Shown one piece after another: positions 44,968 to 64,000 of a stretch of 64,000 bases of DNA. The notes under the pieces were generated by a model. The model was not told the origin of the DNA and did not search any database. It saw nothing but the letters and a program-made list of their open reading frames with translations. Numbering within the stretch: the first letter of the stretch is position 1; each line of letters opens with the position of its first letter. The DNA comes from Halobacteriales archaeon QS_4_69_225. GTDB lineage: Archaea > Halobacteriota > Halobacteria > Halobacteriales > Haloarculaceae. The position numbers and the translations under genes are program-made. The stretch lies in contig PXRL01000008.1 in NCBI GenBank assembly GCA_003020965.1, positions 62,001 through 126,000 of the forward strand, read 5' to 3'.

Positions 44968-44978
44968 ATAATGGATTA

Positions 44979-45926: not shown

Positions 45927-45931
45927 TAGCC

Positions 45932-46459
45932 ATGATCTGGGAAGTCTTCCGGAAGGGAAGCGCGGACGCCGACTTCGTCTACTGTCGAGACGTCCACGCA
46001 CCCGACAAGGAGATGGCCAAGCAGTTCGCGGTCATCCAGCACGGCCGCCGTAAGCCGACCGAGGCGCTGTTGGTCGCCCCGCAGGACGAGATTGCAGAGG
46101 TCTCCCCCGGCGAAGACCTCAGCGAGTCCAGCGGTGACGGCCCCGAAGTCACCTGGACCGTCTTCCGGCAGGACCGCGCTGGCGGCTACCACAGCCACTG
46201 TGGTGAGGTGTCCGCGACGGACCCCGCCGACGCGAAGGCCAAGGTGCTGGATCAGTACGCCGCCACCGACCCCAACAGCCTGTGGGTTGTCCGGGACCGT
46301 CTTACCGGCGAGATTACCAGCGACGAGGTGACCTTCGGCGGGACCACGGACAAGTCCTACCGGTTCGCCCAGACGTACAATGTCGACCCTGCCGCAGAGG
46401 AGGTTGAGGCCTCCGAGGACGAACAGGTCGAGGTTGCACGCAAGCGAGGTGATATCTAA
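45932..46459 (+). CDS. paaB: 1,2-phenylacetyl-CoA epoxidase subunit B, with a duplicated PaaB domain
   Basis: The 175-residue protein is nearly twice the usual PaaB length (about 95). Two copies of the same domain are seen: residues ~1-58 (MIWEVFRKGSADADFVYCRD ... EALLVAPQDEIAEV) and ~72-125 (VTWTVFRQDRAGGYHSHCGE ... LWVVRDRLTGEI), followed by an acidic end. PaaB bridges the PaaAC pairs of the epoxidase complex; a double copy may do the job of the PaaB dimer in one chain. It ends one base into the paaC start (TAATG). Confidence 0.9.
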   Translation: MIWEVFRKGSADADFVYCRDVHAPDKEMAKQFAVIQHGRRKPTEALLVAPQDEIAEVSPGEDLSESSGDGPEVTWTVFRQDRAGGYHSHCGEVSATDPADAKAKVLDQYAATDPNSLWVVRDRLTGEITSDEVTFGGTTDKSYRFAQTYNVDPAAEEVEASEDEQVEVARKRGDI

Positions 46460-47292
46460 TGGCGACGGCAACCCCCGACCTCGGCTCCCCGGACGAACTC
46501 AGCGAGCGCGAACAGCGGGCCGTGGAGGCCCAGCTGTTCCGGCTGGCCGATGACGAATACGTCCAGGCCGAGCGCTACACCTTCTGGCAAGTCCGCGCGC
46601 CGACGCTGGAGTCGGACCTCGCTGTCGCGAACAACTCGCAGGACGAACTCGGCCACGCTCGCCTCTGGTACGAGGCCATCCAGCAGTTCGGGTACACCGA
46701 GGAGTCGCTGCTGTTCGAGAGCGACCCCGACGACTTCCAGCACAGCACGCTCGTCGAGTTGCCCTTCGAACAGGGCGACTGGGCCGACGCCATCGTCCGC
46801 GCGTACCTCTACGACGTGGCGGAGTACATCCGTCTGTCGGCACTAGAGGAGTCCTCCTACGAGGTCATCCGGAACCGTACGAGCCGTATCCAAGGCGAAG
46901 AGGATTATCACATCGAACACGCCCGGAGCTGGCTCGAACGGATGGTTCTCGACAAGGGCGCGACCGAACGCGTCCAGGAGGCGCTGGAACGACACTACTC
47001 CCACGCGTTGACCATCTTCGAACCCGTCGGGGACGTCGAGGAGGACATCGAGGAATTCGGCATCCGGAAGATGACACTCGAGGAGATGCGCGCCGAGTGG
47101 GAGGACCGCGTCGACGGCTTCCTGTCCGGCCTCGGCCTGGACGTCCCGACGGACGCAGACGTCGCCCAGCCGACCGGCCGCGACAACGAGCACACCGAGC
47201 ACTGGGCGGACCTCTTCGAGGAAATGACCTCCGCCTACCGCAATCTCGGTCGCGATGAGGCGACCGTCATCATGGATGAGAACGATGAGTAG
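46459..47292 (+). CDS. paaC: 1,2-phenylacetyl-CoA epoxidase, structural subunit C
   Basis: The 277-residue protein is a PaaA-related ferritin-like subunit: 'VANNSQDELGHARLWYEAIQ', 'LPFEQGDWADAIVRAYLYDV' and 'GEEDYHIEHARSWLERMVLD' correspond to the PaaC helices. PaaC forms a tight pair with PaaA and is needed for activity though it lacks the catalytic iron. It starts at the ATG overlapping the end of paaB and overlaps paaD by 8 bases. Confidence 0.95.
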   Translation: MATATPDLGSPDELSEREQRAVEAQLFRLADDEYVQAERYTFWQVRAPTLESDLAVANNSQDELGHARLWYEAIQQFGYTEESLLFESDPDDFQHSTLVELPFEQGDWADAIVRAYLYDVAEYIRLSALEESSYEVIRNRTSRIQGEEDYHIEHARSWLERMVLDKGATERVQEALERHYSHALTIFEPVGDVEEDIEEFGIRKMTLEEMRAEWEDRVDGFLSGLGLDVPTDADVAQPTGRDNEHTEHWADLFEEMTSAYRNLGRDEATVIMDENDE

Positions 47293-47719
47293 CGACTACG
47301 ACCGGCCCCGGGCCGACCAGGACGCGAGTCCGTGTTCGTATACGGACTACCAGACCAAGAAATGCGTCGAAGGCGAGGTCCCCGCCACCGGCGAGGGCGC
47401 GACCGGCCTCGAACGTGAGGTTTGGGCTGCCCTCTACGAGGTTGAGGATCCGGAGATGCCGGTCAGCGTGGTGGACCTCGGGCTCGTCTATGGGCTGGAC
47501 GTCGATGACGGCACGGCCGACATCGAGATGACGCTCACGTACAGCGGTTGTCCCGCACGCGAGATCATCCTCGACGAAGTCGAAGAAGCCGCCGAGAGCG
47601 TCGACGGCATCAACGAGGCCGAAGTCCACCTCGTATGGTCGCCGGACTGGTCGGTGGATCTGGTCACCGAACAGGGCAAAGAGTCGCTGCGCGAGTTCGG
47701 ACTGAGCTTCGAACAATGA
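47285..47719 (+). CDS. paaD: PaaD N-terminal domain as a separate protein (MIP18/DUF59 family)
   Basis: The 144-residue protein is a DUF59/MIP18-type FeS maturation factor: 'LYEVEDPEMPVSVVDLGLVY', 'ADIEMTLTYSGCPAREIILD' with the conserved Cys, and 'HLVWSPDWSVDLVTEQGKES' near the end. In bacterial PaaD a C-terminal zinc ribbon follows in the same chain; here the chain ends after the MIP18 domain and the ribbon is encoded by the next gene (ATGA overlap). PaaD is needed to mature the epoxidase system. The N-terminal ~40 residues with two Cys (SPCSYTDYQTKKC) are an extra piece. Confidence 0.92.
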   Translation: MSSDYDRPRADQDASPCSYTDYQTKKCVEGEVPATGEGATGLEREVWAALYEVEDPEMPVSVVDLGLVYGLDVDDGTADIEMTLTYSGCPAREIILDEVEEAAESVDGINEAEVHLVWSPDWSVDLVTEQGKESLREFGLSFEQ

Positions 47720-48156: not shown

Positions 48157-48615
48157 TCAGTCCTTCTTTTTGATCAGAAATTTCATGTCGCCTTCGAAGA
48201 CGGTGGTGCCCTCCTGGTTCTCCATCTCCGTGTCGAGGACGACCATGCCGACGTCATCGCGACCGACTTCTTTCTTGTTGGAGACGACCATCTCCAACTG
48301 GAGCGTGTCGCCGATATTGACTGGGTTCGGCAGGTCCATGTAATTCATCCCGAGGAACGCGTAAGCCGTGCGCTCGACGACGCCCGTTCGATAGACGAAG
48401 CCGGTCGCCTGGACGAACGTCATTGGGCCGTGGGCGATGCGCTCGCCGAAGTCCTGCTCCTGTGCGTACTCCTTGTTGGTGTGGAGTTCCGTCCAGTCAC
48501 CGGACAGTGCCGAATGCATGACGAAGTCCGACTCGGTTACCGTCCGGCCGACGCTGATGAACTCCTGTCCTTCTTCGAAGTCTTCGAAATGGTGTGGCTC
48601 GTAGCTGTACGCCAT
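48157..48615 (-). CDS. MaoC family (R)-hydratase, possible oxepin-CoA hydrolase
   Basis: The 152-residue hotdog protein shows the MaoC active site: 'MHSALSGDWTELHTNKEYAQ' (Asp/His dyad region) and 'RIAHGPMTFVQATGFVYRTG'. MaoC proteins hydrate trans-2-enoyl-CoA. In bacterial PaaZ a MaoC-like domain opens the oxepin-CoA ring; a standalone MaoC next to paaABCD may do the same here, but the aldehyde dehydrogenase half of PaaZ is absent from the window. TATAAATG about 28 bases upstream supports the start. Confidence 0.85.
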   Translation of the reverse strand: MAYSYEPHHFEDFEEGQEFISVGRTVTESDFVMHSALSGDWTELHTNKEYAQEQDFGERIAHGPMTFVQATGFVYRTGVVERTAYAFLGMNYMDLPNPVNIGDTLQLEMVVSNKKEVGRDDVGMVVLDTEMENQEGTTVFEGDMKFLIKKKD

Positions 48616-48758: not shown

Positions 48759-49157
48759 ATGTCAGACGTTGCCGACGAGGTTCGCGAACGCGTCGACTCC
48801 GACGCGTTCTGTGACACACTTGGTATCGACGTTATCGAACTGGACGTGGGCTACGCCCGGACGGAACTGACCATTATGGAGGACCTGCTGAACTTCCACG
48901 GCACCCCACACGGCGGTGCCATCTACTCGCTGGCCGACGCCGCCTTCGCCGCGGCCTCGAATTCCCACGGCACGACGGCTGTGGCGTTGGAGACGAACAT
49001 GTCCTATCTGGAGGCCATCGATGTTGGCGAGACGATTACCGCGGAGGCCAAGGAGACGCACCTTGCCGGGAATACGGCAGAGTACAAGGTAGAAGTCACG
49101 GACGGTGCGGACGACCGCATCGCGACGTTCCGCGGCCGAGTCTACCGGATGGATTAA
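48759..49157 (+). CDS. paaI: PaaI-type hotdog thioesterase
   Basis: The 132-residue protein has the PaaI fold: 'LLNFHGTPHGGAIYSLADAA' (active-site loop with HGG and Asp), 'VALETNMSYLEAIDVGETIT' and 'YKVEVTDGADDRIATFRGRV'. PaaI releases CoA from stalled hydroxylated or epoxide phenylacetyl-CoA intermediates, preventing poisoning of the pathway. It converges with paaK, overlapping its end by 4 bases. A TATTTAAT element lies about 30 bases ahead of the ATG. Confidence 0.92.
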   Translation: MSDVADEVRERVDSDAFCDTLGIDVIELDVGYARTELTIMEDLLNFHGTPHGGAIYSLADAAFAAASNSHGTTAVALETNMSYLEAIDVGETITAEAKETHLAGNTAEYKVEVTDGADDRIATFRGRVYRMD

Positions 49158-50443
49158 TCGCGGTGGTCGTGGACGCGCTGGACCTTGCCGACCTCGGTTC
49201 GGCCGATCTCGCCGTGATTTACTAACTGAAGGTCGTCAGGCGTGAACTGCAGGACGTTCTCTAGTCGTTCGAGGACTTCCCCCTCGAGTGACTGCTTGCT
49301 CTTCGTGAGGCTCTGTTCGGTTTCGACGGTGAGTTCCATTACATCGAGGTTATCCTCCTCATAGAGGTCGATGCGGTAGTGCGGAGCGACGCCGTCGATG
49401 TCGAGGATGGTATGTTCGATTTCGCTGGGGTAGAGGTTCACCCCACGGACGATGAGCAGGTCATCGGTGCGGCCGGTGACGTTGTCCATCCGAACCATCG
49501 TGCGGCCGCACTCACACTCGTCATAGTATAGCGTCGTCAGGTCGCCCGTGCGGTACCGCAGGACCGGCAGCGCCTCTCTGGTAAGGGTCGTCAGGACCAG
49601 TTCGCCCTCGTCGCCCTCGTCGACGGGGTCGCCGGTTTGGGGGTCAATGATCTCTGGGTAGAAGTGGTCCTCCCAGATGTGCAGACCGTCCTGTGCCTCG
49701 TGGCACTCACAAGAGACGCCGGGGCCGATAATCTCCGAGAGCCCGTAGATGTCGACGCCGTTGACGCCGAGCTTCTCCTCGATTTCCTCCCGCATTGGGT
49801 CGGTACACGGTTCCGCCCCGAAGATGATAGTCGAGATGGGAAGGTCAGCCGGGTCATGGCCCATCTCCTCGGCCGTCTCGGCGAGGTATAGCGCATAGGA
49901 GGGCGTGCAGGTGAACACGTCGCTCTCGAGGTCGATCATCAACTCGACTTGTCGCTGTGTCTGCCCGCTGCCGATAGGAATGACCGTCGCGTCGAGTTCT
50001 TCCGTCCCGTAGTGCAGACCCAGGCCACCGGTGAACAACCCGTAGCCGTAGGCGTTCTGGACGGTGTCACCGGCCTCGGCACCGCTAGCGGCCAGCGAGC
50101 GGGCGACGACCTCACTCCAGATGTCCAAGTCGTTGTCGGTGTAGGAGACGATTTTGGGCTTGCCGGTCGTCCCCGAGGAGGCGTGAATGCGGAGGACGTC
50201 CTCGTCGTCGACGGCGAATAGGCCGTCCGGATACTCGTCGCGGAAGTCCTCTTTCGTCGTGAACGGCAATTCGCTGATGTCGTCAACGGTTTGAATGTCC
50301 TCAGGGGTGATACCCATCTCGTCGAATTGGTCGCGGTAGTACGGTACGTTCTCGTAGGCGTGCTGAACGGTTTTCTGCAGCTGATCGCTCTGCAGGTCAC
50401 GTAACTCCGACCGGTCGGACGCCTCTACGGGCTTGTATACCAT
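49154..50443 (-). CDS. paaK: Phenylacetate-CoA ligase
   Basis: The 429-residue protein belongs to the AMP-forming ligases: P-loop 'IHASSGTTGKPKIVSYTD', 'FGAEPCTDPMREEIEEKLGV', 'GLSEIIGPGVSCECHEAQDG', 'LPVLRYRTGDLTTLYYDECE' and the C-terminal domain 'DDLLIVRGVNLYPSEIEHTI'. It activates phenylacetate with ATP and CoA, the entry step for PaaABC. TTTTTTATG about 30 bases upstream serves as promoter. A paralogue of about three-quarters identity lies at 59524. Confidence 0.94.
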   Translation of the reverse strand: MVYKPVEASDRSELRDLQSDQLQKTVQHAYENVPYYRDQFDEMGITPEDIQTVDDISELPFTTKEDFRDEYPDGLFAVDDEDVLRIHASSGTTGKPKIVSYTDNDLDIWSEVVARSLAASGAEAGDTVQNAYGYGLFTGGLGLHYGTEELDATVIPIGSGQTQRQVELMIDLESDVFTCTPSYALYLAETAEEMGHDPADLPISTIIFGAEPCTDPMREEIEEKLGVNGVDIYGLSEIIGPGVSCECHEAQDGLHIWEDHFYPEIIDPQTGDPVDEGDEGELVLTTLTREALPVLRYRTGDLTTLYYDECECGRTMVRMDNVTGRTDDLLIVRGVNLYPSEIEHTILDIDGVAPHYRIDLYEEDNLDVMELTVETEQSLTKSKQSLEGEVLERLENVLQFTPDDLQLVNHGEIGRTEVGKVQRVHDHRD

Positions 50444-50817: not shown

Positions 50818-51705
50818 ATGATGTATGTTGCCGTACTCGGAGCCGGCACCATGGGGCACGGCATCGCACAGGTGTCGGCCATGGCCGGCCACGACGTCCG
50901 TCTGCGCGACATCGATGAGGACATCGTTGCCGACGGATTGGACGCTATCGAATCGAATCTCGAAGAGGGCATCGAACGGGACAAGATGACAGAGGAGGCG
51001 GCCGAGGCGACACTCAATAGACTTTCCGGAACCACTTCACTCGAAGAAGCCGTCACGGACGCCCAGTTCGTCATCGAGGCCGTCCCCGAGGACATGGACA
51101 TCAAACACGAAACGGTCACCGACGTGGAGTCACACGTCGCCCGAGAGACGCTCATCTGCTCGAACACCTCCTCGCTGTCGCTGACCGAAATCGCCAGCAG
51201 GCTAGAACATCCGGGCCGGGCCATCGGCCTGCACTTTTTCAATCCCGTTCACATTATGGAGCTGGTCGAAATCGTCGTGCCCGAACAGGCCACAAATGAG
51301 ACCATCGACCGCGCCCATCGGTTTGTCAAAGGTATCGAGAAAACGCCGGTCGAGGTGACCGACTCGCCGGGGTTTGCCTCATCGCGACTGGGGGTCTCCC
51401 TTGGCGTCGAGGCGATGCGAATGGTCGAGGAAGGCGTCGCCTCGCCCGAGGACATCGACACCGCGATGGAACTCGGGTACAACCACCCGATGGGGCCCAT
51501 TGAACTTGGAGACATCGTGGGACTCGACGTGCGCCTCGACATCTTGGAGTACCTGCAGGAGGAACTGGGCAGGCGGTTCCGGCCGCCACGGATACTCAAA
51601 CGGAAGGTCCGCGCCGGGAAACTCGGGAAGAAGACCGGCGAGGGCTTCTACGTCTGGGAAGACGGCAAGCCCGTCGGGACGAGCCATGACCGGGGGGAGC
51701 GCTGA
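50818..51705 (+). CDS. 3-Hydroxyacyl-CoA dehydrogenase (PaaH-like)
   Basis: The 295-residue protein has an NAD-binding Rossmann start (VAVLGAGTMGHGIAQVSAMA), 'NTSSLSLTEIASRLEHPGRA' and the catalytic His in 'IGLHFFNPVHIMELVEIV', followed by the dimerisation domain 'YNHPMGPIELGDIVGLDVRL' and 'KKTGEGFYVW'. It oxidises 3-hydroxyacyl-CoA with NAD, fitting the 3-hydroxyadipyl-CoA step of the Paa pathway. The two first ATG codons are both possible starts. Its stop overlaps the start of the hydratase gene (TGATG). Confidence 0.92.
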   Translation: MMYVAVLGAGTMGHGIAQVSAMAGHDVRLRDIDEDIVADGLDAIESNLEEGIERDKMTEEAAEATLNRLSGTTSLEEAVTDAQFVIEAVPEDMDIKHETVTDVESHVARETLICSNTSSLSLTEIASRLEHPGRAIGLHFFNPVHIMELVEIVVPEQATNETIDRAHRFVKGIEKTPVEVTDSPGFASSRLGVSLGVEAMRMVEEGVASPEDIDTAMELGYNHPMGPIELGDIVGLDVRLDILEYLQEELGRRFRPPRILKRKVRAGKLGKKTGEGFYVWEDGKPVGTSHDRGER

Positions 51706-52514
51706 TGGGACTAGAAGCGATCAGTACCGACTACGAGACTGTAGACGTCTTCGTCGGTGACCGCGTCGACGGCGTTGCGACCGTCGAACTGAATCGCCCC
51801 AATTCCCGGAACGCGCTCAACGGCCAGCTGCGCTCGGAACTCAAGACTGTCATCGACGAAGTACCCGAAACCGATGTTCGTGTTGTCGTCCTGACTGGCG
51901 CGGAGGACACGGGCGCGTTCGTCGCCGGCGCTGATGTGACCGAACTCCGGGAACGTGACGCACTCGAACAGCGCGAGGCCAGCAAGCGGCCCCGGGTATA
52001 CGAAGTGATTGACGACTGTCCGATGCCAGTCATCGCCCGCATCAACGGTCACGCTCTGGGCGGAGGTTGTGAACTCATACAAGCGTCGGACATCCGCATC
52101 GCCCACGAGAATGCGAAAATCGGCCAACCCGAAATCAATCTCGGCATCATCCCCGGTGGCGGTGGCACGCAGCGCCTGCCCCGTCTTATTGGCGAAGGGC
52201 ACGCGATGCGGATGATTCTAACCGGCGAACTCATTGACGCCAAGGAAGCCCAAGAGATAGGCCTCGTCGACGAGGTACACGGCGAAGAGAGCTTCGACGA
52301 GCGAGTGTACGAAATCGCGGCGTCGATAGCCGCGAAGAGTCCCGTTGCACTCGAATTTGCGAAGAAATCGATCAAGGCGGCCTCCCGAATGGACCTCGAA
52401 TCCGGCATCGAATACGAGGCCGAACTTTTCGCCCAGTTGTTTGCTACCGGACATAAAGACGAAGGCATTGATGCCTTCTTCGAAGACCGCGAACCCGAGT
52501 GGGACGATGTTTGA
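51705..52514 (+). CDS. Enoyl-CoA hydratase/isomerase (PaaF/PaaG-like)
   Basis: The 269-residue crotonase has 'TGAFVAGADVTELRERDALE' and 'ARINGHALGGGCELIQASDI' (oxyanion-hole Ala/Gly), 'NLGIIPGGGGTQRLPRLIGE' with the first catalytic Glu region, and a C-terminal 'EGIDAFFEDREPEWDD'. It hydrates or isomerises unsaturated dicarboxyl-CoA intermediates, in PaaF or PaaG manner; only one such gene is intact nearby. It is translationally coupled to the dehydrogenase gene. Confidence 0.92.
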   Translation: MGLEAISTDYETVDVFVGDRVDGVATVELNRPNSRNALNGQLRSELKTVIDEVPETDVRVVVLTGAEDTGAFVAGADVTELRERDALEQREASKRPRVYEVIDDCPMPVIARINGHALGGGCELIQASDIRIAHENAKIGQPEINLGIIPGGGGTQRLPRLIGEGHAMRMILTGELIDAKEAQEIGLVDEVHGEESFDERVYEIAASIAAKSPVALEFAKKSIKAASRMDLESGIEYEAELFAQLFATGHKDEGIDAFFEDREPEWDDV

Positions 52515-53388: not shown

Positions 53389-54159
53389 TCAGGCGTGTGC
53401 CAGGTTTATGCTGATTTCGTTAACTGCGCCCAGCAGGAGCGTAGGGAGTTCCTCACGGAGGAGAGAACCTTCAAGTCTGTTTGCAGGGCCGGAAACGCTG
53501 ATAGCACCGATAGCGACGTCGTGCTGATCGGTAACTGGTACGCCGACGGCGTGCAGGCCTTGGACAGATTCCTCGAAATTGAACGCGTACCCACGGTCCC
53601 GAATGGTCTCGATTTCCTCCCAGAGGTCGTCCTCGGAGGTAATTGTGTGTGGTGTCTTGGACGGCAGTCCGTGGGTAGCGATTATCTCTTCGACGCGCTT
53701 GTCGGGCATGTGTGCCAGCATCGCCTTACCTGCGGCGTGTTGGTGGAGGTGGTTTCGATGCCCGATGCGTGCGTAGGTCTGGACGGAGTGTTTCCCCCGT
53801 GCGCCGTATATGTGAACACTGCGGCCGTGTTCCTCGACGGCACACCAGATTTTCTCATCCGTCTCGTCAGCCAGTTCGTCGACCTTCGGCTTCGCCTCTT
53901 GATAGAGCGTGTACCTGGCGCGCGCGACCGACCCATAATCCAGAAATCGAATGCCGAGCCGATACTCGTCGCCGTCCTCGATAAGGAAGCTGTTCGATTC
54001 TAACGTCTTGAGGTGCCTGTGGGCCGTGCTTTTCGCACAACCGAGGTAGTCCATTATTTCCGGGATGGTTGCCGACCCATTCTGTTTCAGATAGTCGATA
54101 ATTTCGATGGCCCGCTCTACTGTCTCGACAGGGCGGTTGACGTCGGCTGGCATCGTCAT
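53389..54159 (-). CDS. IclR family transcriptional regulator
   Basis: The 256-residue protein starts MTMPADVNRPVETVERAIEI, then a winged HTH ('GSATIPEIMDYLGCAKSTAH', 'RHLKTLESNSFLIEDGDEYR') and the IclR effector domain ('GARGKHSVQTYARIGHRNHL', 'QHAAGKAMLAHMPDKRVEEI', 'FNFEESVQGLHAVGVPVTD', 'AIGAISVSGPANRL'). Such proteins sense small aromatic or keto acids and repress or activate catabolic genes. The gene is divergent from EthD/TPP-enzyme genes and has a candidate operator 38-54 bases upstream of its start. Confidence 0.92.
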   Translation of the reverse strand: MTMPADVNRPVETVERAIEIIDYLKQNGSATIPEIMDYLGCAKSTAHRHLKTLESNSFLIEDGDEYRLGIRFLDYGSVARARYTLYQEAKPKVDELADETDEKIWCAVEEHGRSVHIYGARGKHSVQTYARIGHRNHLHQHAAGKAMLAHMPDKRVEEIIATHGLPSKTPHTITSEDDLWEEIETIRDRGYAFNFEESVQGLHAVGVPVTDQHDVAIGAISVSGPANRLEGSLLREELPTLLLGAVNEISINLAHA

Positions 54160-54316: not shown

Positions 54317-54643
54317 ATGCCAAAAATAGTCGACCTGCTCATTCGGAAGGACGGGTATAGCCACGAGGACTTTGCAAAGCGCTGGCAGGGAGACCACGCC
54401 GATCTCGCGAAGGACCTCCCGGGTCTGAAACGCTACGTCACCTCTGTGCCAACACAGCCCGAGGACGCCGAGTTCGACGGTGTCCTCGAGCTGTACTTCG
54501 AAGACATGGCCACGCTTGCGGAGGCCTTTGACTCGGACATCGCTGCGGAGGTCCAAGAGGACGCGACGGAGTTTATCGACTTGGAGGCGGGCCCACGGCT
54601 CATCGTCGAAGAGACTGTACAGTTCGACGAGACCCATGACTGA
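54317..54643 (+). CDS. EthD family protein
   Basis: The 108-residue protein is a dimeric alpha/beta barrel (ferredoxin-like) of the EthD type: 'MPKIVDLLIRKDGYSHEDFA', 'RWQGDHADLAKDLPGLKRYV', 'FDGVLELYFEDMATLAEAFD'. EthD proteins occur with oxygenases and aromatic or ether catabolism, with roles from muconolactone isomerase-like to unknown. Start is the ATG at 54317. It overlaps the TPP enzyme gene by 8 bases, so it is the first gene of an operon divergent from IclR. Confidence 0.87.
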   Translation: MPKIVDLLIRKDGYSHEDFAKRWQGDHADLAKDLPGLKRYVTSVPTQPEDAEFDGVLELYFEDMATLAEAFDSDIAAEVQEDATEFIDLEAGPRLIVEETVQFDETHD

Positions 54644-56339
54644 AGTTGGGGAACGCCTCGTCGAGGAACTCGACGAGCAAGACGTGGAGTACATTTTCGG
54701 CTACCCAGGTGGGCGCGTCATCGAGCTCTTGGACCACGTACCCGGAGCTGACGTGACAATGGTGCGCCCGCGCGACGAGCGCGAGGCTAGTGTGATGGCC
54801 GAGATGCACGGTCGTCTCACCGGGAACCCGGGCGTCCTCGCCGGCCAGGGCCCCTGGATCGGTAGTCTCGGTGCCATCGGCCAGATGGAGGGGTATCTCG
54901 CCTCCTCGCCGATGGTCGTCATTACCGAGGCTAGCGAGCGTGGCGACTACTCCACACTTGCCCCTTACCAGCAGGCCCGCGGTGATTACGGGGGGTTGGA
55001 TCTCCCATCGGCACTCGACGCCTACACGAAGGAAAACTGGTTCCCGCGCTCGCCGACCGAGACGATTCGGAGCCTCCAGCTCGCGTTCAAACACGCGACT
55101 GCAGGCCGGCCAGGGCCAACCGCAGTCATCCTCGACGGTGATGCGGTGACCGAGAAGGTGCCGGAAGACCCCGTCCCACCCGTGTGGGACGGCCACGACC
55201 AGGTCCAGAACTGGGAGTCCCGGCCCGATAGTGACGACATCGAGACGGCTGTCGACGCGCTGAGCGAGGCCGACCGGCCGGTCATCGTCGCCGGCAATGG
55301 CGTCCACGCGGCCGACGCATATGACGAGTTGCGCGCCGTCACAGAGGCCATGGACGCTGTCGTTGCGACGTCTTATCTCGGGAAGTCGACATTCCCCGAG
55401 ACCCACGACCTGGCGGCTGGTGTTATCGGCTCCTTTGGCCACGAGGGCGCGAACCAAGTCGTCAGTGAAGCCGACGTTCTCCTCGTCGTCGGCTGTCGGA
55501 TGAACCCCATGGACACCAACTGGCAGTCCCCGGAATTCATCCGGCCCGGTGAGCAGACCATCATCCACGCCGACATCGATACTCGCAACGCCGGCTGGGT
55601 CTACCCCGCCGACGTGGCGCTCATCGGCGACGCGGCACTGAGTCTCGCTGATCTCGCGGCAGAACTACCGGACGGCGCCGGCAACGATTGGGCGCGGGAT
55701 CGTGCGGCCGCCGCACGCGAATCGTTTTACGATCAGGAATGCGATGCCGACGATGCGCCGATCAAGCCCCAGCGGGCCGTCAAGGAAATTGAGGCCATCG
55801 TCGACGAGGACACCATCGTCACGGCGGACTCCGGTAACAACCGCTTCTGGTTGCTCAACTACCTGCAAGCCCCAGATACCGGCACCTATTACGGCAGTGG
55901 CGGCGTCGGTGCGATGGGTTGGGCAACGCCCGCAGCGGTGTCGGCGGCTATCACTACTGATAAGGACGTCATCGGCGTCGCTGGCGACGGCGGCTTTACG
56001 ATGACGATGACCAGTGTCGAAACGGCCGTCCAGCACGACGTGGCCCCTACCTTCGTTGTTCTCAACGACACTAGCCTCGGGATGGTCCGCCAGATGCAGC
56101 ACGAAGAGGGCGACATCGCTGGCGTCGAGTTCCACGACACTGACTTCGTCAAAGCCGCCGAAGCCTTCGGTGCCGAGGCGACGCGGGCAACGACCCCTGA
56201 CGAACTCATCGAGGCGCTTGATAAGGGAGTCAGCGCCGACGTCCCCTTTGTGGTCGACGTCCACATCGACCGCGACGAAGAGATGGCTAAGTCCCTCCAG
56301 TCTTCGTTCTACGAGGAGGTCGGTGGTCTGCACGAATAG
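54636..56339 (+). CDS. Thiamine pyrophosphate enzyme, acetolactate synthase-like
   Basis: The 567-residue protein has three TPP-enzyme domains. The N-terminal domain reads 'VEYIFGYPGGRVIELLDHVP' and 'RPRDEREASVMAEMHGRLTG', retaining the Glu that activates TPP; the middle domain has 'EADRPVIVAGNGVHAADAYD'; the C-terminal domain has 'VIGVAGDGGFTMTMTSVETA' and, 26-27 residues later, 'NDTSLGMV', the TPP/Mg motif. Family members decarboxylate 2-keto acids or ligate C2 units; the context with an aromatic pathway suggests an aryl-keto acid, but that is inference. It is not near other branched-chain amino acid genes, so a role as acetolactate synthase is unlikely. Confidence 0.9.
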   Translation: MTEVGERLVEELDEQDVEYIFGYPGGRVIELLDHVPGADVTMVRPRDEREASVMAEMHGRLTGNPGVLAGQGPWIGSLGAIGQMEGYLASSPMVVITEASERGDYSTLAPYQQARGDYGGLDLPSALDAYTKENWFPRSPTETIRSLQLAFKHATAGRPGPTAVILDGDAVTEKVPEDPVPPVWDGHDQVQNWESRPDSDDIETAVDALSEADRPVIVAGNGVHAADAYDELRAVTEAMDAVVATSYLGKSTFPETHDLAAGVIGSFGHEGANQVVSEADVLLVVGCRMNPMDTNWQSPEFIRPGEQTIIHADIDTRNAGWVYPADVALIGDAALSLADLAAELPDGAGNDWARDRAAAARESFYDQECDADDAPIKPQRAVKEIEAIVDEDTIVTADSGNNRFWLLNYLQAPDTGTYYGSGGVGAMGWATPAAVSAAITTDKDVIGVAGDGGFTMTMTSVETAVQHDVAPTFVVLNDTSLGMVRQMQHEEGDIAGVEFHDTDFVKAAEAFGAEATRATTPDELIEALDKGVSADVPFVVDVHIDRDEEMAKSLQSSFYEEVGGLHE

Positions 56340-56384
56340 ACAGCAAAACTATTGATGACACGCGATAACCACACGGTTACGACA

Positions 56385-57347
56385 ATGACAGACTGCACCG
56401 TACTCATTACTGGTGGTACCGGCTTCCTCGGCTCCTACATCGTCGATGACTTCATCCAACACGGACACGAGGTCGTGGCCTACGACCTCTCGACGGACGA
56501 CCGCATTCTCTCGAAACTCGGCGTCGCCGACGACGTTGAGATTCGTCGCGGTGACGTCTCCGAAGTCACCGACGTGATTCGCGCCGTCGAAGAGACTGGT
56601 GCAACACATATCGTCCACCTCGCCGCACTGCTGACCAACAGCGCCCGAGATAACCCCCGTGCGGCGCTTGACGTCAATGTTCAGGGCACCAATAACATCT
56701 TCGAGGCCGCGCGCGTCCTCGACGACCAGGTCGAACGCGTTTCCTGGGCCTCCAGCGCCGCTGTCTACGCCCCACCGCACAATTACGACGCCGAGTACGT
56801 CGCCGAGGAAGAACTTGTCTACCCCGACACCCTATACGGTGCGACCAAGGAGTACAACGAACACCAGGCTCGTGTCTATCACGAGGACTACGGCCTCGAC
56901 TATGTGGCCCTGCGACCCACCGTCGCATACGGCCCCTACCGCGAGACGGGCGGCTCTGCCTTCCTAGCAAATATCGTTGAGAAACCTGCGGTCGGTGAGT
57001 CTTTCAGCGTCGAGTACGGCGACCAAGTCATCGACTGGCAACACGCCCGCGACATCGCTCAGGCGTTCCGCAAGGCGACGTTCGTCGACGAATCGGAGGT
57101 CTCTCAGCGCGTCTACAATGTCCGTGGTGTGCTAGCGACGATTCGGGAGGCCGCCGACACCGTCCGAGAGATTGTTCCCGGCGCCGATCTCGACGTCTCT
57201 GACGACGGCGAACTCCCCTGGACCCAAAACCTCGACATGACCGCCGCCCAGAAAGACTTCGGCTACGAGGTGGAGTACGACCTGGAGACTGGCTTCCGCT
57301 CGTACATCAACACCCTGCGCGAGGAGAACGGCCTCAACCCAGTGTAG
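56385..57347 (+). CDS. NAD-dependent epimerase/dehydratase (extended SDR)
   Basis: The 320-residue protein has the Rossmann motif 'VLITGGTGFLGSYIVDDFIQ', 'THIVHLAALLTNSARDNPRA', 'VSWASSAAVYAPPHNYDAEY' (Ser) and 'YPDTLYGATKEYNEHQARVY' with YxxxK. It is complete and typical of UDP-sugar epimerases and of related dehydrogenases that act on small molecules. The start at 56385 (MTDCTVLITG) begins the fold; an upstream ATG at 56355 is possible. Spacing of 45 bases behind the TPP enzyme suggests the same operon. Confidence 0.88.
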   Translation: MTDCTVLITGGTGFLGSYIVDDFIQHGHEVVAYDLSTDDRILSKLGVADDVEIRRGDVSEVTDVIRAVEETGATHIVHLAALLTNSARDNPRAALDVNVQGTNNIFEAARVLDDQVERVSWASSAAVYAPPHNYDAEYVAEEELVYPDTLYGATKEYNEHQARVYHEDYGLDYVALRPTVAYGPYRETGGSAFLANIVEKPAVGESFSVEYGDQVIDWQHARDIAQAFRKATFVDESEVSQRVYNVRGVLATIREAADTVREIVPGADLDVSDDGELPWTQNLDMTAAQKDFGYEVEYDLETGFRSYINTLREENGLNPV

Positions 57348-57357
57348 TCAATTCTCT

Positions 57358-57828
57358 TCACTTGCCGAGTCGCTCGCCGTCCACGTAGAGCCGCTCCGGT
57401 TCTGGTCGGCTCCTACCGTATGTGTCGTGGTACTCGAACAGTTGGAAGAGAGCGCCGGTCGGATTCGATGGCGGGACGAACGCCTCCGTCCAGTCGTCGT
57501 ATTCGCGGTACTCGATGATGTCGAGGCCGGCCTCCTCGACGGCAGCGGTGACAGCATCGATGGCTGCCACCTCCAGTGTGACGTGGTGCAGGCCGGGCCC
57601 GTGGTCGTGGAGGTACGTCGTGAGGAAGGTGTCTTCCGCCTCTGGCGCGATGAGTTCCAGGCGAGAGGCGGACCGCCCGAAGTCGTACTGTGCCCACCTG
57701 AATCGTCCCTCGACGGATTCCTCGATGAGTTTTTGACATCCGAACGCCAGTAATACCGGCTCGGCGTCGTCGATGGATTCGACGGCAATGCCGACGTGGT
57801 CGACGCGGATAGGCGTCTCGTGTGCCAT
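57358..57828 (-). CDS. VOC family protein (methylmalonyl-CoA epimerase/glyoxalase-like)
   Basis: The 156-residue protein has paired beta-alpha-beta-beta-beta modules: 'IRVDHVGIAVESIDDAEPVL' with metal-binding His, 'SRLELIAPEAEDTFLTTYLH', 'GPGLHHVTLEVAAIDAVTAA' with second His, and 'NPTGALFQLFEYHD' with the last ligand. The arrangement is like methylmalonyl-CoA epimerase, though that gene normally sits with the mutase. It converges on the epimerase gene with only 10 bases between the stops. Exact substrate unknown. Confidence 0.87.
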   Translation of the reverse strand: MAHETPIRVDHVGIAVESIDDAEPVLLAFGCQKLIEESVEGRFRWAQYDFGRSASRLELIAPEAEDTFLTTYLHDHGPGLHHVTLEVAAIDAVTAAVEEAGLDIIEYREYDDWTEAFVPPSNPTGALFQLFEYHDTYGRSRPEPERLYVDGERLGK

Positions 57829-57965: not shown

Positions 57966-59234
57966 ATGTACGAGCGTGACTTCATGGAAGGCACGCGTGG
58001 CACCATGGCTGTCGACTGGGAGGAACGCATCAATGTCCAGCGGATGCGACGCGAGCGTAAGAACCGCGCACTCGAACGGCTGCAGGACTCCGAACTTGGG
58101 TCGATGTTACTCATCAACGACCCCAATGTCCGCTACATCACCGGGCTGGCGATGACCGGCGGTAGTGGCGCCGACCACTACACACTCATCACCGAAGACG
58201 GCGACATGGTTCACTGGGACACGGCCGATCACGCTTCTAATCAGAAATTCAACTGCCCCTGGCTAAACGACATCCGCTATGCCTGCCCCGGCTTGGGCAA
58301 CGTCCCACGAGCATCCGGGCGCTCGTCGGCGCGTGACTGGTTGAAGGACAAGATGGCCGGGACGGTCTACGAGGCCATGGAGGAGTACGGCGTCGACAAG
58401 GAACCGATGGGCATCGACGTCGCCAGCGGTGCCCTCGTTGAGAAGTTCGAGGACCGCGGCGTCGACGTCGACACTAATGTGGCGACGGACATCATGCTGG
58501 GCGCTCGCAAGACGAAAACCCGGGACGAAATCGAGTGCCTGCGGATGGTCGCCGCCATCTGTGAGGCCGGCTTCCAGGCCATCACTGAGAGCGCCAAGCC
58601 CGGCAAACAAGAATCCGAAGTCTGGGGCGACGCGGTCAAAGAACTCTGGCGCCACGGCGCGATGGCACAGGGTGGCTACGTGACCTCTGGTCCCAACACG
58701 TGGCCGAAACACCAGGCGAATACGACCGACCGGATGATTCGTCCCAATGACCTCGTTTACGCGGACTTCTACAACATCGGCTATCTCGGCTATCGTTCCT
58801 GCTATTACCGCACCTTCAGCATGGGCCAGCCTACCCAGGTCCAGCAGGATGCCTACGAGAAGGCTCGCGACGACCTCTACGACGTACTCGAGCGCATCGA
58901 GCCCGGTGCGACGACGGACGAGATTTGCAAGGGCTTTCCCGACGAGGAGGGCGAGCACATGGACTGGTACGGAGCCGACGACTTCTGGCAGATGACTACT
59001 AACCACTGGGCTCACGGGCTGGGTCTCCAGCTTTACGAGGTGCCGCTCATCTGGCGCGGTCTCTCGCCGGACCATCCCATCGAAATCGAGGAGGGCATGA
59101 CCATGGCCGTCGAGACGATGCAACCCGCCGACCGACAGGGTGTCCGCGTTGAGGAGATGGTCGTTGTCCGCGAAAACGGCGTCGAAATCCTCTCCGAGTG
59201 GCCCATCGAAGAGATCACTCGCATCGACTACTGA
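57966..59234 (+). CDS. M24 family (creatinase/aminopeptidase P fold) protein lacking a metal ligand
   Basis: The 422-residue protein has a creatinase N-terminal domain ('LINDPNVRYITGLAMTGGSG') and the pita-bread domain ('TKTRDEIECLRMVAAICEAG', 'VYADFYNIGYLGYRSCYYRT', 'TTNHWAHGLGLQLYEVPLIW', 'EEGMTMAVETMQPADRQGVR'). At the second Asp ligand position of metallopeptidases there is Cys279 in SCYYRT where SDxTRT is usual, so a dinuclear metal centre is doubtful. Metal-free relatives such as creatinase and ectoine hydrolase cleave C-N bonds of small molecules. The gene is probably an amidinohydrolase- or amidase-like catabolic enzyme. Confidence 0.85.
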   Translation: MYERDFMEGTRGTMAVDWEERINVQRMRRERKNRALERLQDSELGSMLLINDPNVRYITGLAMTGGSGADHYTLITEDGDMVHWDTADHASNQKFNCPWLNDIRYACPGLGNVPRASGRSSARDWLKDKMAGTVYEAMEEYGVDKEPMGIDVASGALVEKFEDRGVDVDTNVATDIMLGARKTKTRDEIECLRMVAAICEAGFQAITESAKPGKQESEVWGDAVKELWRHGAMAQGGYVTSGPNTWPKHQANTTDRMIRPNDLVYADFYNIGYLGYRSCYYRTFSMGQPTQVQQDAYEKARDDLYDVLERIEPGATTDEICKGFPDEEGEHMDWYGADDFWQMTTNHWAHGLGLQLYEVPLIWRGLSPDHPIEIEEGMTMAVETMQPADRQGVRVEEMVVVRENGVEILSEWPIEEITRIDY

Positions 59235-59523: not shown

Positions 59524-60810
59524 ATGCGAGATAACAACGAGTCCCTTGATCGGGCAGAGCTGCGTGAACTGCAGACAGAGCGGTTCAGAGAGACGGTCGA
59601 ACACGCCTACGAGAACGTCCCTTTCTACCGCGAGCGGCTTGATGAAGCTGGCGTCGCTCTCGATAACGTCGAGGGTATCGACGACATCGTCGACTTCCCC
59701 TTCACGACAAAAGAGCACTTTCGCGACGAATATCCCGATGGCCTGTTCGCGGTAGATGACGATGAGGTATCCCGTATCCACGCCTCGTCGGGAACCACCG
59801 GCAAACCCAAAATCGTCTCCTACACGGACGAGGACCTGGACCTCTGGAGGGAGGCAATGGCCCGGTCGCTGACCGCCGCCGGTGCTGGCCCAGCCGATAC
59901 CGTCCAGAACGCCTACGGCTACGGGCTGTTCACCGGTGGCCTCGGCTTCCACGAAGGGGCAGAACAACTTGGCGCCGCCGTGGTTCCGACCAGCAGCGGT
60001 GGCACGCAACGCCAGGTCGAACTCGCCCGTGACCTCGCCAGCACCGTCCTCGCGTGTACGCCCTCCTACGCGCTGTACTTTGCGGAGGAAGCCGAGGCGA
60101 TGGGCTACGACCCACGTGACCTCCCAATCGAGATTATCGCTTACGGCGCCGAGACGTGCACGGAGCCGATGCGGGCGGAAATCGAGGAGACGCTGGACGC
60201 CACTGGAATCAATAACTACGGGCTCTCGGAGATCATCGGTCCTGGCGTCGCCGCCGAGTGCCACGAGGCACAGGACGGTCTGCACATCTGGGAGGATCTC
60301 TTCTATCCCGAGGTCGTCGACCCCCAAACCGGCGACCCCGTCGACGAGGGCGACGAGGGCGAACTGGTCTTGACAACGCTCACCAAGGAAGCATTGCCTA
60401 TCCTGCGGTACCGCACGGGCGATCTGACGACGCTGTCCTACGGTGAGTGTGAGTGCGGCCGCACGATGGTTCGGATGGACAACGTCACCGGCCGCACCGA
60501 TGACCTGCTCATCGTCCGCGGTGTGAACCTCTATCCCAGCGAAATCGAACATACCATCCTCGACATCGACGGCGTCGCCCCGCACTACCGCATCGATCTT
60601 TACGAGGAGAACAACCTCGACGCAATGGAACTCACTGTCGAACGCGCCGAAAGCGCGAAGCGAAGCGACCAGGCACTCCGTGACGACATCCTGACCCGCC
60701 TGGAGAACGTCCTCTCTTTAACCCCGGATAAACTGGAGTTGGTCCCAGCCGGCGGTATCGAACGCACCGAGGTCGGCAAGGTTCAGCGCGTCTACGATCA
60801 CCGTGGCTGA
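59524..60810 (+). CDS. Phenylacetate-CoA ligase paralogue
   Basis: The 428-residue protein is a close paralogue of the PaaK at 49154: 'IHASSGTTGKPKIVSYTDED', 'YGAETCTEPMRAEIEETLDA', 'YGLSEIIGPGVAAECHEAQD', 'ALPILRYRTGDLTTLSYGEC', 'DDLLIVRGVNLYPSEIEHTI'. It adenylates an aryl or aryl-acetic acid and transfers it to CoA. Differences are concentrated in the region around residues 150-230, which may change the acid accepted, for example hydroxyphenylacetate; this is inference. It is followed closely by a second PaaI-type thioesterase, repeating the ligase-thioesterase pairing of the first cluster. Confidence 0.92.
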   Translation: MRDNNESLDRAELRELQTERFRETVEHAYENVPFYRERLDEAGVALDNVEGIDDIVDFPFTTKEHFRDEYPDGLFAVDDDEVSRIHASSGTTGKPKIVSYTDEDLDLWREAMARSLTAAGAGPADTVQNAYGYGLFTGGLGFHEGAEQLGAAVVPTSSGGTQRQVELARDLASTVLACTPSYALYFAEEAEAMGYDPRDLPIEIIAYGAETCTEPMRAEIEETLDATGINNYGLSEIIGPGVAAECHEAQDGLHIWEDLFYPEVVDPQTGDPVDEGDEGELVLTTLTKEALPILRYRTGDLTTLSYGECECGRTMVRMDNVTGRTDDLLIVRGVNLYPSEIEHTILDIDGVAPHYRIDLYEENNLDAMELTVERAESAKRSDQALRDDILTRLENVLSLTPDKLELVPAGGIERTEVGKVQRVYDHRG

Positions 60811-60864: not shown

Positions 60865-61248
60865 ATGGACATCGAAGCCTTTTTCCAGAACATGCCGTTT
60901 GCTGACCTGCTGGGCATCGAAGTAACTGAAGTCGACGACGGCCACGCGGAGGGACACATCGAGATGCGTCAGGACCTCTCTTGGAACGAGGACCAGGTGA
61001 TGGCCCACGGTGGCGTCACGTTCACACTTGCAGACACCGTCGGCGGCGCTGCACTGGTCTCGAAGGTCGACCAGCCTTGCCCCACCATCGACATGCGCAT
61101 CGACTACATAGAGGCCGGCACGGGGGACCTCCGCGCGGAGGCCGATGTGGTGCGTATCGGCGGCGACGTGGGTACCGTCGACGTTGAGGTGTACGCGGAG
61201 GACAGTGCACGCGTCGCGAACGCCCGGGGCGTCTACAAGACCGGGTAG
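60865..61248 (+). CDS. PaaI-type hotdog thioesterase, second copy
   Basis: The 127-residue protein has 'MPFADLLGIEVTEVDDGHAE', 'EDQVMAHGGVTFTLADTVGG' (HGG active-site loop with Asp) and 'TIDMRIDYIEAGTGDLRAEA'. It is related to, but clearly different from, the PaaI at 48759. It probably clears dead-end acyl-CoAs made by the ligase just upstream. GTTTATACC about 30 bases ahead of the ATG gives a leaderless promoter of its own. Confidence 0.9.
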   Translation: MDIEAFFQNMPFADLLGIEVTEVDDGHAEGHIEMRQDLSWNEDQVMAHGGVTFTLADTVGGAALVSKVDQPCPTIDMRIDYIEAGTGDLRAEADVVRIGGDVGTVDVEVYAEDSARVANARGVYKTG

Positions 61249-61653
61249 ACGATTACTGGAGGCATGATAGTAGCCGTGGTCAGCGTCAAGACTGGGTGAC
61301 GGGTCGGATCCGTTATCACCACAATTAATCATGTGATACCACCTCTCACGCCACGTTTACAGTCAACAGAAAGCCATTCACGATAGCAATAATAGAGCCC
61401 GACGTAACGGATAGCGACGCTGAGTCGAGCCAGGCGTTCTGGAAGCCGGCATTCACTACGTTCGTCAAGCAGTTTCGGAGTTCACCTTGTATCGTCGACG
61501 ACGAGGGGAAAGACAATGGCTTGGAACGACAACATGGTTGACCTGCTAAGGTACACCGAGGGAGAGCTGATAACCATCTGCGAGACGACCCGATCGCATC
61601 TAACTGATTCGTATATTCGCTCTACCTGCTCGATATCTGGCTATTCCTCCCCT
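61249..61653. other. Gap between thioesterase and penicillin acylase genes
   Basis: About 400 bases with no supported gene. The segment 61395-61580 has codon-like GC pattern but no family features, so at most a decayed fragment. Confidence 0.45.
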
Positions 61654-61664
61654 AAATTTAATAA
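61654..61664 (+). promoter_or_regulatory. TATA box of the penicillin acylase family gene
   Basis: The AAATTTAATAA stretch is centred about 28 bases before the ATG at 61688 and predicts a leaderless message, which supports that start. Confidence 0.6.
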
Positions 61665-61687
61665 ATGTCCACTCCGCCACCGACTGT

Positions 61688-64000
61688 ATGCCAGAGAGTC
61701 TCCACCAGGCCTGGCGAGACGTATCACGGCGAGACGTCCTCAAAACCGGCGCAGCCGTGGCCGGCGCGGCTGGCATCAGTGCCGTTGAAACCGAACTTGC
61801 ATACGCACAGGACGACGGCGAGGAGGTGAAAGTCGAAATCAAACGCGATGACTACGGCGTTCCACATATCTACGCACGGGACGCGGACAGTCGTGCACCG
61901 GTGTTCTACGGCTACGGGTACGCGACGGCGAGTGACCGGCTGTACCAGCTAGAACTCTATCGACGGTACTACCACGGGACTACCGCTGAGGTCCTCGGGG
62001 CAGGCGAGGGCGGCAACGACTGGGTCCAATTCGACAAGGAAGCACGCCGGAACACGGCCGGTGAATCGCCGCTGACCGAGCAGATTGACGAGCAACTGAC
62101 GGACTCCCAGCAGAACGTCCTCCAAGCGTTCACGGACGGCATCAACCGGTACATCCAGGAGATCCGTGACAGCGACGACATGGAGTTCCACAAGGCCTTC
62201 CAAGACAAGGGCTTCGAGCCCGATGAGTTCACCATCACGGACACGGCCGGAATGTACGTCGGCAGTATGGCCTTCTTTAGCGGGTTCCAACTGGAGACGC
62301 TCGGCGCCGCGGTGGTCAGCGCCCTGACCGACAGCACCGGCAGTGAAGGGCGCGCCATGGAGCTGTTCGACGACCTGAACTGGGGCAACGACCCCGGCGC
62401 GCCCACCTCGACGGTCCAGTCCGAAGAGGCCTACAAGCCGCCCTTTACCGACGTGGCCAACGGCCTCGATGAGAGCGGCGGTGCCGCGAGCAGGTCTAAA
62501 CAATCTTCGGTCAGTCGTGGCGCAACCGGTGAGGTGAACGCACTGTCGAATCGGGTCACCGGCGGCGATCTCGCCATCCCCGACGACGCACATAGGATTC
62601 ACGAAGCCGAGATGGACCGCATTGAGACGCTCGCTACGGGCCTCGACGAACTCGGGCTCCCCATCAAGTACGGCAGCAACGCGCTCGCCGTTCAAGGCGA
62701 CATCACCGAGAGTGGCGACGCCCTGATGATGGGTGGCCCGCAGATGGGCTTCAATACGCCGCCAATCATGTACGAGGCGGGCCTCCACGGGCCGGACTTC
62801 GACGTGGCTGGCATCACCGTCGCGGGCTACCCCTTCATTATGTTCGGGCACAACCGCAACGGCGCGATGACGTCGACGGCGGGCATCGATAACTGCCTGC
62901 AGATGTTCCGGGAGTCCGTCACCATCAACGAAGACGGGGCGGATACTTACAGATTCCAGGGCGAGGAGTACGAGGTCGAAACCAAAGAGAAGACCGTCGA
63001 GGTCGCCGACGGCGAGAATGAGACCTACACCGAGCGATTCACCCGCCACGGCGTCGTTACGCAGTGGGACCCGGACAACGGCCAAGCGCTGGCCCAGACT
63101 AAATCCTACGCCGGCCGACACATGACCAGCTGGCGGGCCTTTTACGAGTGTCAGTTTGCCGAAGACGCCCAGGGGTTCCGCGAGTCCGCGAGTCGCTGCG
63201 ACTATGCACTGAACTTCATGTGGGCGGACAAGAACGGCGACATCGCGTACGTCCATCTCGGCCGGTACCCCGACGCCGAGAGCGTCGAATGGGACACCCG
63301 ACTCCCCGCTGACGGGACGCAGTACGAACTTACCGATGACGACTACGTCAGGGCCGCGAACGGAGAGGTGCCCTACGCCATCAACCCGGACCCGGGTTAC
63401 TCCGCGCAGTGGAACAACAAGCCAGCGCCGGAGTGGAACAACGGCGACCTGAGCTACTCCTGGGGGACCGACCACCGCGTTCAGCGCATCATCAATACTG
63501 TCGAGCAACGCCTCGACCGGAACGGCGCCGTCTCCTACGAGGACCTGAAGGACGTCGTCTACGACATCTCGTTCACCGATCTCCGCTCTATCCGCTACAA
63601 GGATCACCTCGAGAGCGCCCTGGAAGAGGCCAACCTCACAGAGACGGAAGAACTCGCCCGGCAGGAGGTCGCCAACTGGGACCACTTCGCGCAGGCCGAT
63701 GGCGAGGATAATAAGGGTCTGTACCCGGCTGGATACACTATCTGGAATGCCACCTTCCCGAAAATACTTCAGGAAATCTTCGCTGATGACTTCGGCGATG
63801 CCTATGGCCCGGCCTCGTTTTTCCTCAGTTATCGTTACGGCCGCGGCACCCTGATGCGCGTACTCAATCCCGACCAGACGGCGATGGACACCGCCGCCGA
63901 CTATGCCGATGGCAGCCCCGACGAAGCACTTGTGACGGCGTTCAAGAACGCTGTCGCCGAACTCGACGAGCAGTACGACGGGATGCCTGCCTCGTGGCGC
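61688..64000 (+). CDS. Tat-exported penicillin acylase family protein (3' end outside window)
   Basis: The frame is open from ATG 61688 to the window end (771 residues seen). A twin-arginine signal (VSRRDVLKTGAAVAGAAG) and a cleavage-like AYAQDD follow, so the enzyme should be exported folded. Then come 'IKRDDYGVPHIYARDADSRA', typical of the family start, the alpha-chain 'YATASDRLYQLELYRRYYHG', a linker (~240-300), and the new beta-chain N-terminus 'LPIKYGSNALAVQGD', where Ser330 would be the autocatalytic nucleophile; 'AGYPFIMFGHNRNGAMTSTA' follows as in Ntn-hydrolase acylases. These enzymes hydrolyse amides of aromatic or acyl acids; penicillin G acylases release phenylacetate. That link to the adjacent Paa genes is inference. 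Confidence 0.93.
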   Translation, partial: MPESLHQAWRDVSRRDVLKTGAAVAGAAGISAVETELAYAQDDGEEVKVEIKRDDYGVPHIYARDADSRAPVFYGYGYATASDRLYQLELYRRYYHGTTAEVLGAGEGGNDWVQFDKEARRNTAGESPLTEQIDEQLTDSQQNVLQAFTDGINRYIQEIRDSDDMEFHKAFQDKGFEPDEFTITDTAGMYVGSMAFFSGFQLETLGAAVVSALTDSTGSEGRAMELFDDLNWGNDPGAPTSTVQSEEAYKPPFTDVANGLDESGGAASRSKQSSVSRGATGEVNALSNRVTGGDLAIPDDAHRIHEAEMDRIETLATGLDELGLPIKYGSNALAVQGDITESGDALMMGGPQMGFNTPPIMYEAGLHGPDFDVAGITVAGYPFIMFGHNRNGAMTSTAGIDNCLQMFRESVTINEDGADTYRFQGEEYEVETKEKTVEVADGENETYTERFTRHGVVTQWDPDNGQALAQTKSYAGRHMTSWRAFYECQFAEDAQGFRESASRCDYALNFMWADKNGDIAYVHLGRYPDAESVEWDTRLPADGTQYELTDDDYVRAANGEVPYAINPDPGYSAQWNNKPAPEWNNGDLSYSWGTDHRVQRIINTVEQRLDRNGAVSYEDLKDVVYDISFTDLRSIRYKDHLESALEEANLTETEELARQEVANWDHFAQADGEDNKGLYPAGYTIWNATFPKILQEIFADDFGDAYGPASFFLSYRYGRGTLMRVLNPDQTAMDTAADYADGSPDEALVTAFKNAVAELDEQYDGMPASWR

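Follow-up and report, generated by a model that had tools for sequence, protein, structure and literature searches.

A haloarchaeal penicillin G acylase encoded beside phenylacetate catabolic genes and its probable role in feeding them

The gene starting at position 61688 of the window (the whole 64,000-nucleotide stretch that was analysed; a window coordinate is the contig C8 coordinate minus 62000) encodes, by its sequence and predicted structure, a genuine penicillin G acylase (PGA). This enzyme, placed outside the cytoplasmic membrane, is probably the entry point that feeds an island of phenylacetate catabolic genes. In the proposed mechanism the precursor would be exported via the Tat route and would cleave itself before Ser330 into α and β chains, with Ser330 as the N-terminal nucleophile. 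Archaeosortase A would process a C-terminal PGF-CTERM tail, leaving the acylase lipid-anchored on the cell surface, where it would hydrolyse environmental amides (possibly esters) of phenylacetate or related arylacetates. The freed acid would be taken up by a neighbouring branched-chain-type ABC transporter and converted to its CoA thioester by PaaK, and the thioester would be degraded by PaaABCD and downstream enzymes. The natural substrate, the transporter cargo and the co-regulation of this system are points that we infer. The features of the window are listed in Table 1.

Table 1. Features of the acylase gene and of the phenylacetate (paa) island, in window coordinates
Feature	Position	Strand	Basis or remark
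HTH_10 regulator, divergent from paaA	44192..44896	-	
paaABCD, phenylacetyl-CoA epoxidase genes	44979..47719	+	PaaABC 44979-47289, PaaD 47285-47716; NCBIfam models
MaoC-like hydratase (PaaZ C-terminal-like)	48157..48615	-	
PaaI thioesterase	48759..49157	+	TIGR02286, 122.1 bits (cut-off 118.9)
PaaK1, phenylacetate-CoA ligase	49154..50443	-	NF041878, 807.8 bits
3-Hydroxyacyl-CoA dehydrogenase (PaaH-like) and enoyl-CoA hydratase	50818..52514	+	
IclR-family regulator	53389..54159	-	
EthD-domain protein	54317..54643	+	
ThDP-dependent (acetolactate-synthase-like) enzyme	54636..56339	+	
NAD-dependent epimerase/dehydrogenase	56355..57347	+	
VOC/glyoxalase-fold protein	57358..57828	-	
M24-family hydrolase	57966..59234	+	PF00557; conserved with the cluster; present in 27/27 PGA genomes
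PaaK2, phenylacetate-CoA ligase	59524..60810	+	NF041878, 785.6 bits (cut-off 700)
PaaI-like hotdog thioesterase (g57)	60865..61248	+	PF03061, E 2.1e-14
TATA-like element taaatttaataaat	61653..61666	+	22-35 nt upstream of the acylase ATG (sequence)
PGA precursor, N-terminal 771 of 933 codons	61688..64000	+	PF01804, E 7.7e-111; PDB PGAs, E 1e-76 to 1e-31
Tat signal peptide (SRRDVLKTG; Arg 14-15)	61688..61807	+	Pfam TAT_signal; alignment of orthologues
α-Chain region, approximately residues 43-255	61814..62452	+	phmmer to PGA α chains, E 8e-39
Presumed spacer peptide, residues 256-329	62453..62674	+	Variable among orthologues; low pLDDT at about model residues 204-232
Ser330 codon, predicted N-terminal nucleophile (β1)	62675..62677	+	Invariant; structural match to PGA β residue 1
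β Chain, running on beyond the window	62675..64000	+	Catalytic part to about residue 862, then Thr/Asp-rich linker and PGF-CTERM tail

The acylase reading frame opens with an ATG and has no stop up to the window end; on the genome contig the gene ends at 64489, 489 bases beyond the window, and the full protein has 933 residues. The Pfam family PF01804 (Penicil_amidase) spans residues 48-862 and profile positions 1-674 of 675. In phmmer searches the best PDB matches are all PGAs, and weaker matches are found to D-succinylase (1e-23), cephalosporin acylase (1e-17) and the acyl-homoserine lactone (AHL) acylase PvdQ (1e-6). A penicillin acylase, as originally predicted at 61688-64000, is thus confirmed by the family profile, the PDB matches and the predicted structure described below. 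A chance or mis-called ORF was ruled out because orthologues with 53-73% identity retain both the reading frame and the catalytic residues. Proteins recorded in RefSeq as 'Penicillin acylase family protein' in Haloarcula, Halorubrum, Natrinema and Halorussus (plasmid records) are direct orthologues, annotated by family only and sharing 64-71% identity across most of the protein; in Halorubrum and Haloarcula their neighbours are the same as those of the window acylase. Within the collection of papers searched, there was no functional description of these haloarchaeal orthologues and no paper combining 'penicillin acylase' with 'haloarchaea'. A second haloarchaeal clade of acylases with the PGA-type GPQ motif was also observed, 25-28% identical to the window acylase (L007-L018). 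On a Haladaptatus halobius plasmid the acylase gene is broken into two ORFs, with no paa genes around it (L079:11104-13703); this is probably a decaying copy.

In the phmmer alignment to PDB sequences, Ser330 lies opposite residue 1 of PGA β chains. Gly329, the last residue of the spacer, is invariant in 17 aligned haloarchaeal orthologues, as are β Ser1, Gln23, Met24, Phe57, Ser67, Ala69, Asn241 and Arg263 and α Phe146. This set includes the oxyanion and catalytic residues of PGA (β Gln23, Ala69, Asn241 and Arg263, present in 17/17) and, from the phenylacetyl pocket, α Phe146, β Phe57 and β Ser67; the residue roles are those in E. coli PGA. Two positions differ from the E. coli enzyme: β Phe24 is Met in all 17 orthologues (Val in Bacillus megaterium PGA in the phmmer alignment), and α Arg145 is Phe or Tyr. 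The substrate preference may therefore depart from penicillin G.

A structural model was built in AlphaFold2 from 41 haloarchaeal sequences, divergent paralogues included (mean pLDDT 84, pTM 0.86); a model based on the 17 close orthologues alone reached a pLDDT of 51.5 and was discarded. The top 18 Foldseek matches of the retained model are all PGAs, the best being Bacillus PGAs at 31-33% identity. In VIA-align the model superposes on PGAs with Z scores of 28-33 and an r.m.s.d. of about 2.5 Å across 510-520 residues, and model residue 287, which corresponds to Ser330, falls on β residue 1 of about 20 PGA crystal structures. Slightly higher Z scores are obtained with single-chain cephalosporin acylase and D-succinylase, because both of their chains align, yet with larger r.m.s.d. 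and lower identity. The placing of Ser330 at the expected self-cleavage point is thereby borne out by sequence and by predicted structure, and autocatalytic cleavage before this residue is predicted. The nearest solved structures are the B. megaterium and B. thermotolerans PGAs (PDB entries 6nvw, 9ul0 and 6nvy), with 31-34% identity in the β chain; the archaeal acylase differs from these in its extra C-terminal linker and PGF-CTERM tail, its host and its predicted surface attachment.

Maximum-likelihood analysis places the haloarchaeal orthologues in one clade (support 100/100). This clade joins the PGAs of E. coli, Paracoccus and Acinetobacter (87/74) within a larger PGA-type clade (100/100), separate from the AHL- and cephalosporin-acylase types. 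The larger clade also contains the second haloarchaeal branch, and the other haloarchaeal paralogues lie outside it. The GPQ motif of the window acylase is that of PGAs, whereas the outside paralogues carry a DPH-like motif where it was read. These observations bear on the suggestion that the enzyme quenches signals by acting on AHLs or other N-acyl signal molecules. The acylase does share a superfamily with AHL acylases, and cleavage of C6-C8 AHLs is a side activity of the characterised PGA from Kluyvera citrophila (PMC5474475). PvdQ-type enzymes are, however, distant (E 1e-6, compared with 1e-76 for PGAs), the GPQ motif is not the DPH of the other haloarchaeal and bacterial family members compared, and the genes around the acylase are paa genes and a nutrient importer. 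Signal quenching, which the original prediction had allowed for, is therefore unsupported, and we regard it as highly improbable. Membership of the PvdQ/MacQ type of AHL acylase was ruled out by sequence, motif and tree, the PvdQ NCBIfam model scoring 52.7 bits against a cut-off of 950.

The acylase N-terminus carries a Tat signal, SRRDVLKTGAAVAGAAG, that scores slightly over the cut-off of the Pfam TAT_signal model, and its twin arginines are invariant in the 17 aligned orthologues, in keeping with the Tat export originally proposed. The C-terminus, beyond the window, ends in ...DGSGPGFGILIGAAAVLGSALIWLRNRDEDDE and has the PGF-CTERM layout of a PGF motif, a hydrophobic stretch and a charged end (GPGFGILIGAAAVLGSALIWLRNRDEDDE). 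The reading ...TPTDGSGPGFGILIGAAAVLGSALIWLRNRDEDDE places this tail behind a Thr/Asp-rich linker, at residues ~899-933 (64382-64486 on the window scale), and the PGF-CTERM model tail matches residues 868-927. The same genome has two tandem archaeosortase A genes, both far above the family cut-off (G000:C12:49085-51936). In Haloferax volcanii PGF proteins, including Tat substrates, are cleaved by ArtA and lipid-anchored (PMC7157517). With such a tail and archaeosortase A in the genome, the acylase is therefore probably lipid-anchored at the cell surface rather than freely secreted, and we infer both the cleavage of the tail and the anchoring from sequence features. Of the extracellular enzyme first envisaged, export stands and free secretion is the less likely part; the tail was invisible in the window because the gene runs beyond it. 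The PGF-CTERM tail is common to the Haloarcula, Natrinema, Halorubellus and Halorubrum copies and absent from the Haladaptatus and most Natrialbaceae copies, so export appears to be general and anchoring lineage-specific.

The two PaaK genes and the PaaABC epoxidase that had been noted near the acylase are upheld by NCBIfam models, the window PaaA scoring 277.8 bits against a cut-off of 280. The PaaI-like thioesterase next to the acylase also adjoins it in Natrinema, Halorubrum and Natrialbaceae. Just after the window end lie genes for HD and EthD proteins, four genes of a branched-chain-type ABC transporter and a further IclR regulator gene; the binding protein of the transporter starts SRRKFLAAAG...LAGC, read from the sequence as a Tat lipoprotein signal. 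The PaaZ-type aldehyde dehydrogenase and the thiolases of the Halorubrum copy were not found in the cluster of the window, and the relatives that the genome has elsewhere share only 34-50% identity. In Halorubrum and Haloarcula a full aldehyde dehydrogenase lies between paaD and the MaoC gene, and it is missing from that place in the window. The two thiolases and an HMG-CoA-synthase-like gene, which in these genera stand between PaaK1 and the hydroxyacyl-CoA dehydrogenase, are likewise missing at window positions 50443-50818. Just past the window lies a chimeric remnant (L003:7179-7604; 66179-66604 on the window scale) in which an ABC ATPase fragment is fused to the C-terminal portion of a PaaZ-like aldehyde dehydrogenase. 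Elsewhere in the window, positions 21807-27845 encode a 2012-residue protein with a von Willebrand factor A domain.

Orthologues of the acylase were found in 27 of 391 haloarchaeal genomes. All 27 have paaA, compared with 186/391 overall (hypergeometric P 7e-10, kinship ignored); counted by genus, paaA accompanies the acylase in 12/12, compared with 54/86 (P 0.002, kinship again ignored). The ABC binding protein is likewise present in 27/27, compared with 89/391 overall (hypergeometric P 1e-19; by genus P 3e-7; both ignoring kinship). It lies within 15 kb of the acylase in 23/27, and paaA lies within 26 kb in 19/27; the eight genomes in which paaA is not within that distance include one (G389) at a contig break. 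No paa neighbours were found in the stretches read around the Halorubellus and Haladaptatus halobius copies. A nearly identical gene series is found on a 300-kb plasmid of Halorubrum sp. PV6, and a variant of the cluster on a 540-kb plasmid of Haloarcula sinaiiensis. In Natrialbaceae the acylase comes first, next thioesterase, PaaK and paaDCBA on the opposite strand, and last the ABC transporter. The gene order is thus reshuffled between Haloarculaceae/Halorubrum and Natrialbaceae and the gene set is still together; the distances vary by lineage, and this is therefore not one frozen segment. As a small negative control, no other haloarchaeal penicillin-acylase paralogue was near paaA in the six genomes with both positions listed. 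The link between the acylase and phenylacetate catabolism is not chance. Of 57 genomes lacking the acylase, 36 have the transporter no more than 25 kb from paaA; it is thus a plausible importer serving the paa pathway.

The same survey bears on two other readings of the acylase. It might be a detoxification or general peptide-scavenging amidase hitch-hiking with paa genes on megaplasmids: several copies are on plasmids, and the gene is patchy, with an orthologue in 0/19 same-genus genomes searched. Against this, the set stays together in differing gene orders in at least eight genera, and bacterial PGAs independently show the same neighbours, so we consider hitch-hiking very improbable. The strongest rival is that the acylase serves a narrower aromatic-amide pathway in which phenylacetate is at most one product, and in which the M24 hydrolase, a luciferase-like monooxygenase and the ThDP, NAD-epimerase, VOC, EthD and HD proteins process the substrate or its amine half. 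The M24 gene is present in all 27 acylase genomes, within 32 kb of the acylase in 24; M24, VOC, EthD and the ABC transporter remain with the acylase in Haladaptatus, where paaA is not nearby; and a luciferase-like gene is directly upstream of the acylase in Haladaptatus and Natrialbaceae. However, M24 (128/391) and the transporter (89/391) are much wider than the acylase and are often near paaA without it, so their place may instead be in the general catabolism of phenylacetate or aromatics. We judge the narrower pathway unlikely. Release of phenylacetate outside the cytoplasm, followed by uptake and breakdown, as in the original prediction, is well supported by the co-occurrence of the acylase with paaA and the transporter in 27/27 genomes, by their proximity, which is kept through the reshuffling, and by the pairing of PGA with phenylacetate genes in Paracoccus and E. 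coli.

On a plasmid of Paracoccus denitrificans PD1222 the PGA gene is followed in order by a PaaX-family regulator, a thiolase, paaABCDE, another phenylacetate catabolic gene and paaZ. The PGA gene of Paracoccus sp. TOH stands directly after a branched-chain-type ABC transporter and has a 4-hydroxyphenylacetate hydroxylase nearby. In these strains, as in haloarchaea, PGA is physically joined to paa genes or to an ABC transporter, but the clusters are bacterial operons, the PGAs are 27-28% identical to the window acylase and the regulator and gene set differ. The E. coli PGA gene adjoins hpa genes, and its promoter is bound by PaaX with binding inhibited by phenylacetyl-CoA, according to a review that cites Galan et al. 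2004 (PMC9493321). The same review holds that PGA is thought to scavenge natural phenylacetate amides and esters. The PaaX-controlled PGA of E. coli W and the window acylase have in common the family, the catalytic residues, export and a tie to phenylacetyl-CoA catabolism. The window acylase differs in being archaeal, 29% identical, tailed by PGF-CTERM and replaced at α Arg145 and β Phe24, and no PaaX was found near it, where IclR and HTH_10 regulators stand. Given these bacterial parallels, the idea followed up here is the archaeal case of an existing bacterial proposal; the bacterial theme is already known, and the archaeal case is new.

Archaea lack peptidoglycan, the target of penicillins, and PGA is kept beside paa genes in several haloarchaeal families, which is evidence for the scavenging of arylacetyl amides as its native job. 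The haloarchaeal pairing is also evidence on that job independent of E. coli, for a superfamily whose natural role is described as obscure and in which β-lactam hydrolysis is thought unlikely (PMC5474475). The acylase would add an upstream feeding step to the haloarchaeal phenylacetate pathway, and it offers a salt-tolerant PGA that is predicted to be naturally surface-anchored. A more specific form of the proposal is advanced tentatively, as possible rather than probable: that the anchored PGA, a dedicated ABC importer and the accessory set (M24, luciferase-like, ThDP, EthD, VOC and HD proteins) scavenge and degrade a specific natural arylacetyl amide that would be new as a PGA substrate. If true, such scavenging in peptidoglycan-free organisms would separate the native role of PGA from β-lactams.

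A 2026 survey describes the haloarchaeal phenylacetate pathway as incomplete and mostly without local regulators, and the acylase is absent from its description of the archaeal pathway (PMC13186573). The TATA-like element 22-35 nt before the acylase ATG suggests that the gene has its own promoter and a leaderless transcript, and an A+T-rich element occupies the matching position upstream of the Haloarcula, Halorubrum and G274 orthologues. Inspection by eye of the upstream regions in the window, Haloarcula and Halorubrum revealed separate TATA-like boxes for the PGA and paa genes and no clear operator common to both. A CCCAAA element upstream of both PGA and PaaK1 in some species is indistinguishable from ordinary haloarchaeal promoter elements. 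No PaaX regulator was assigned among the acylase neighbours scanned, IclR and HTH_10 regulators being found instead. The HTH_10-type regulator divergent from paaA (window 44192-44979) keeps this position in Natrialbaceae and Haloarcula and is a candidate local regulator of haloarchaeal paa genes. A copper amine oxidase was observed in the same cluster in Natronococcus, Natronorubrum and Haloarcula vallismortis (L045:5092-7119, L038:7246-9297, L043:712-2757 and L047:4815-6857), an arrangement that resembles tynA-feaB beside paa in E. coli; by this analogy the oxidase is possibly another feeder of phenylacetate.
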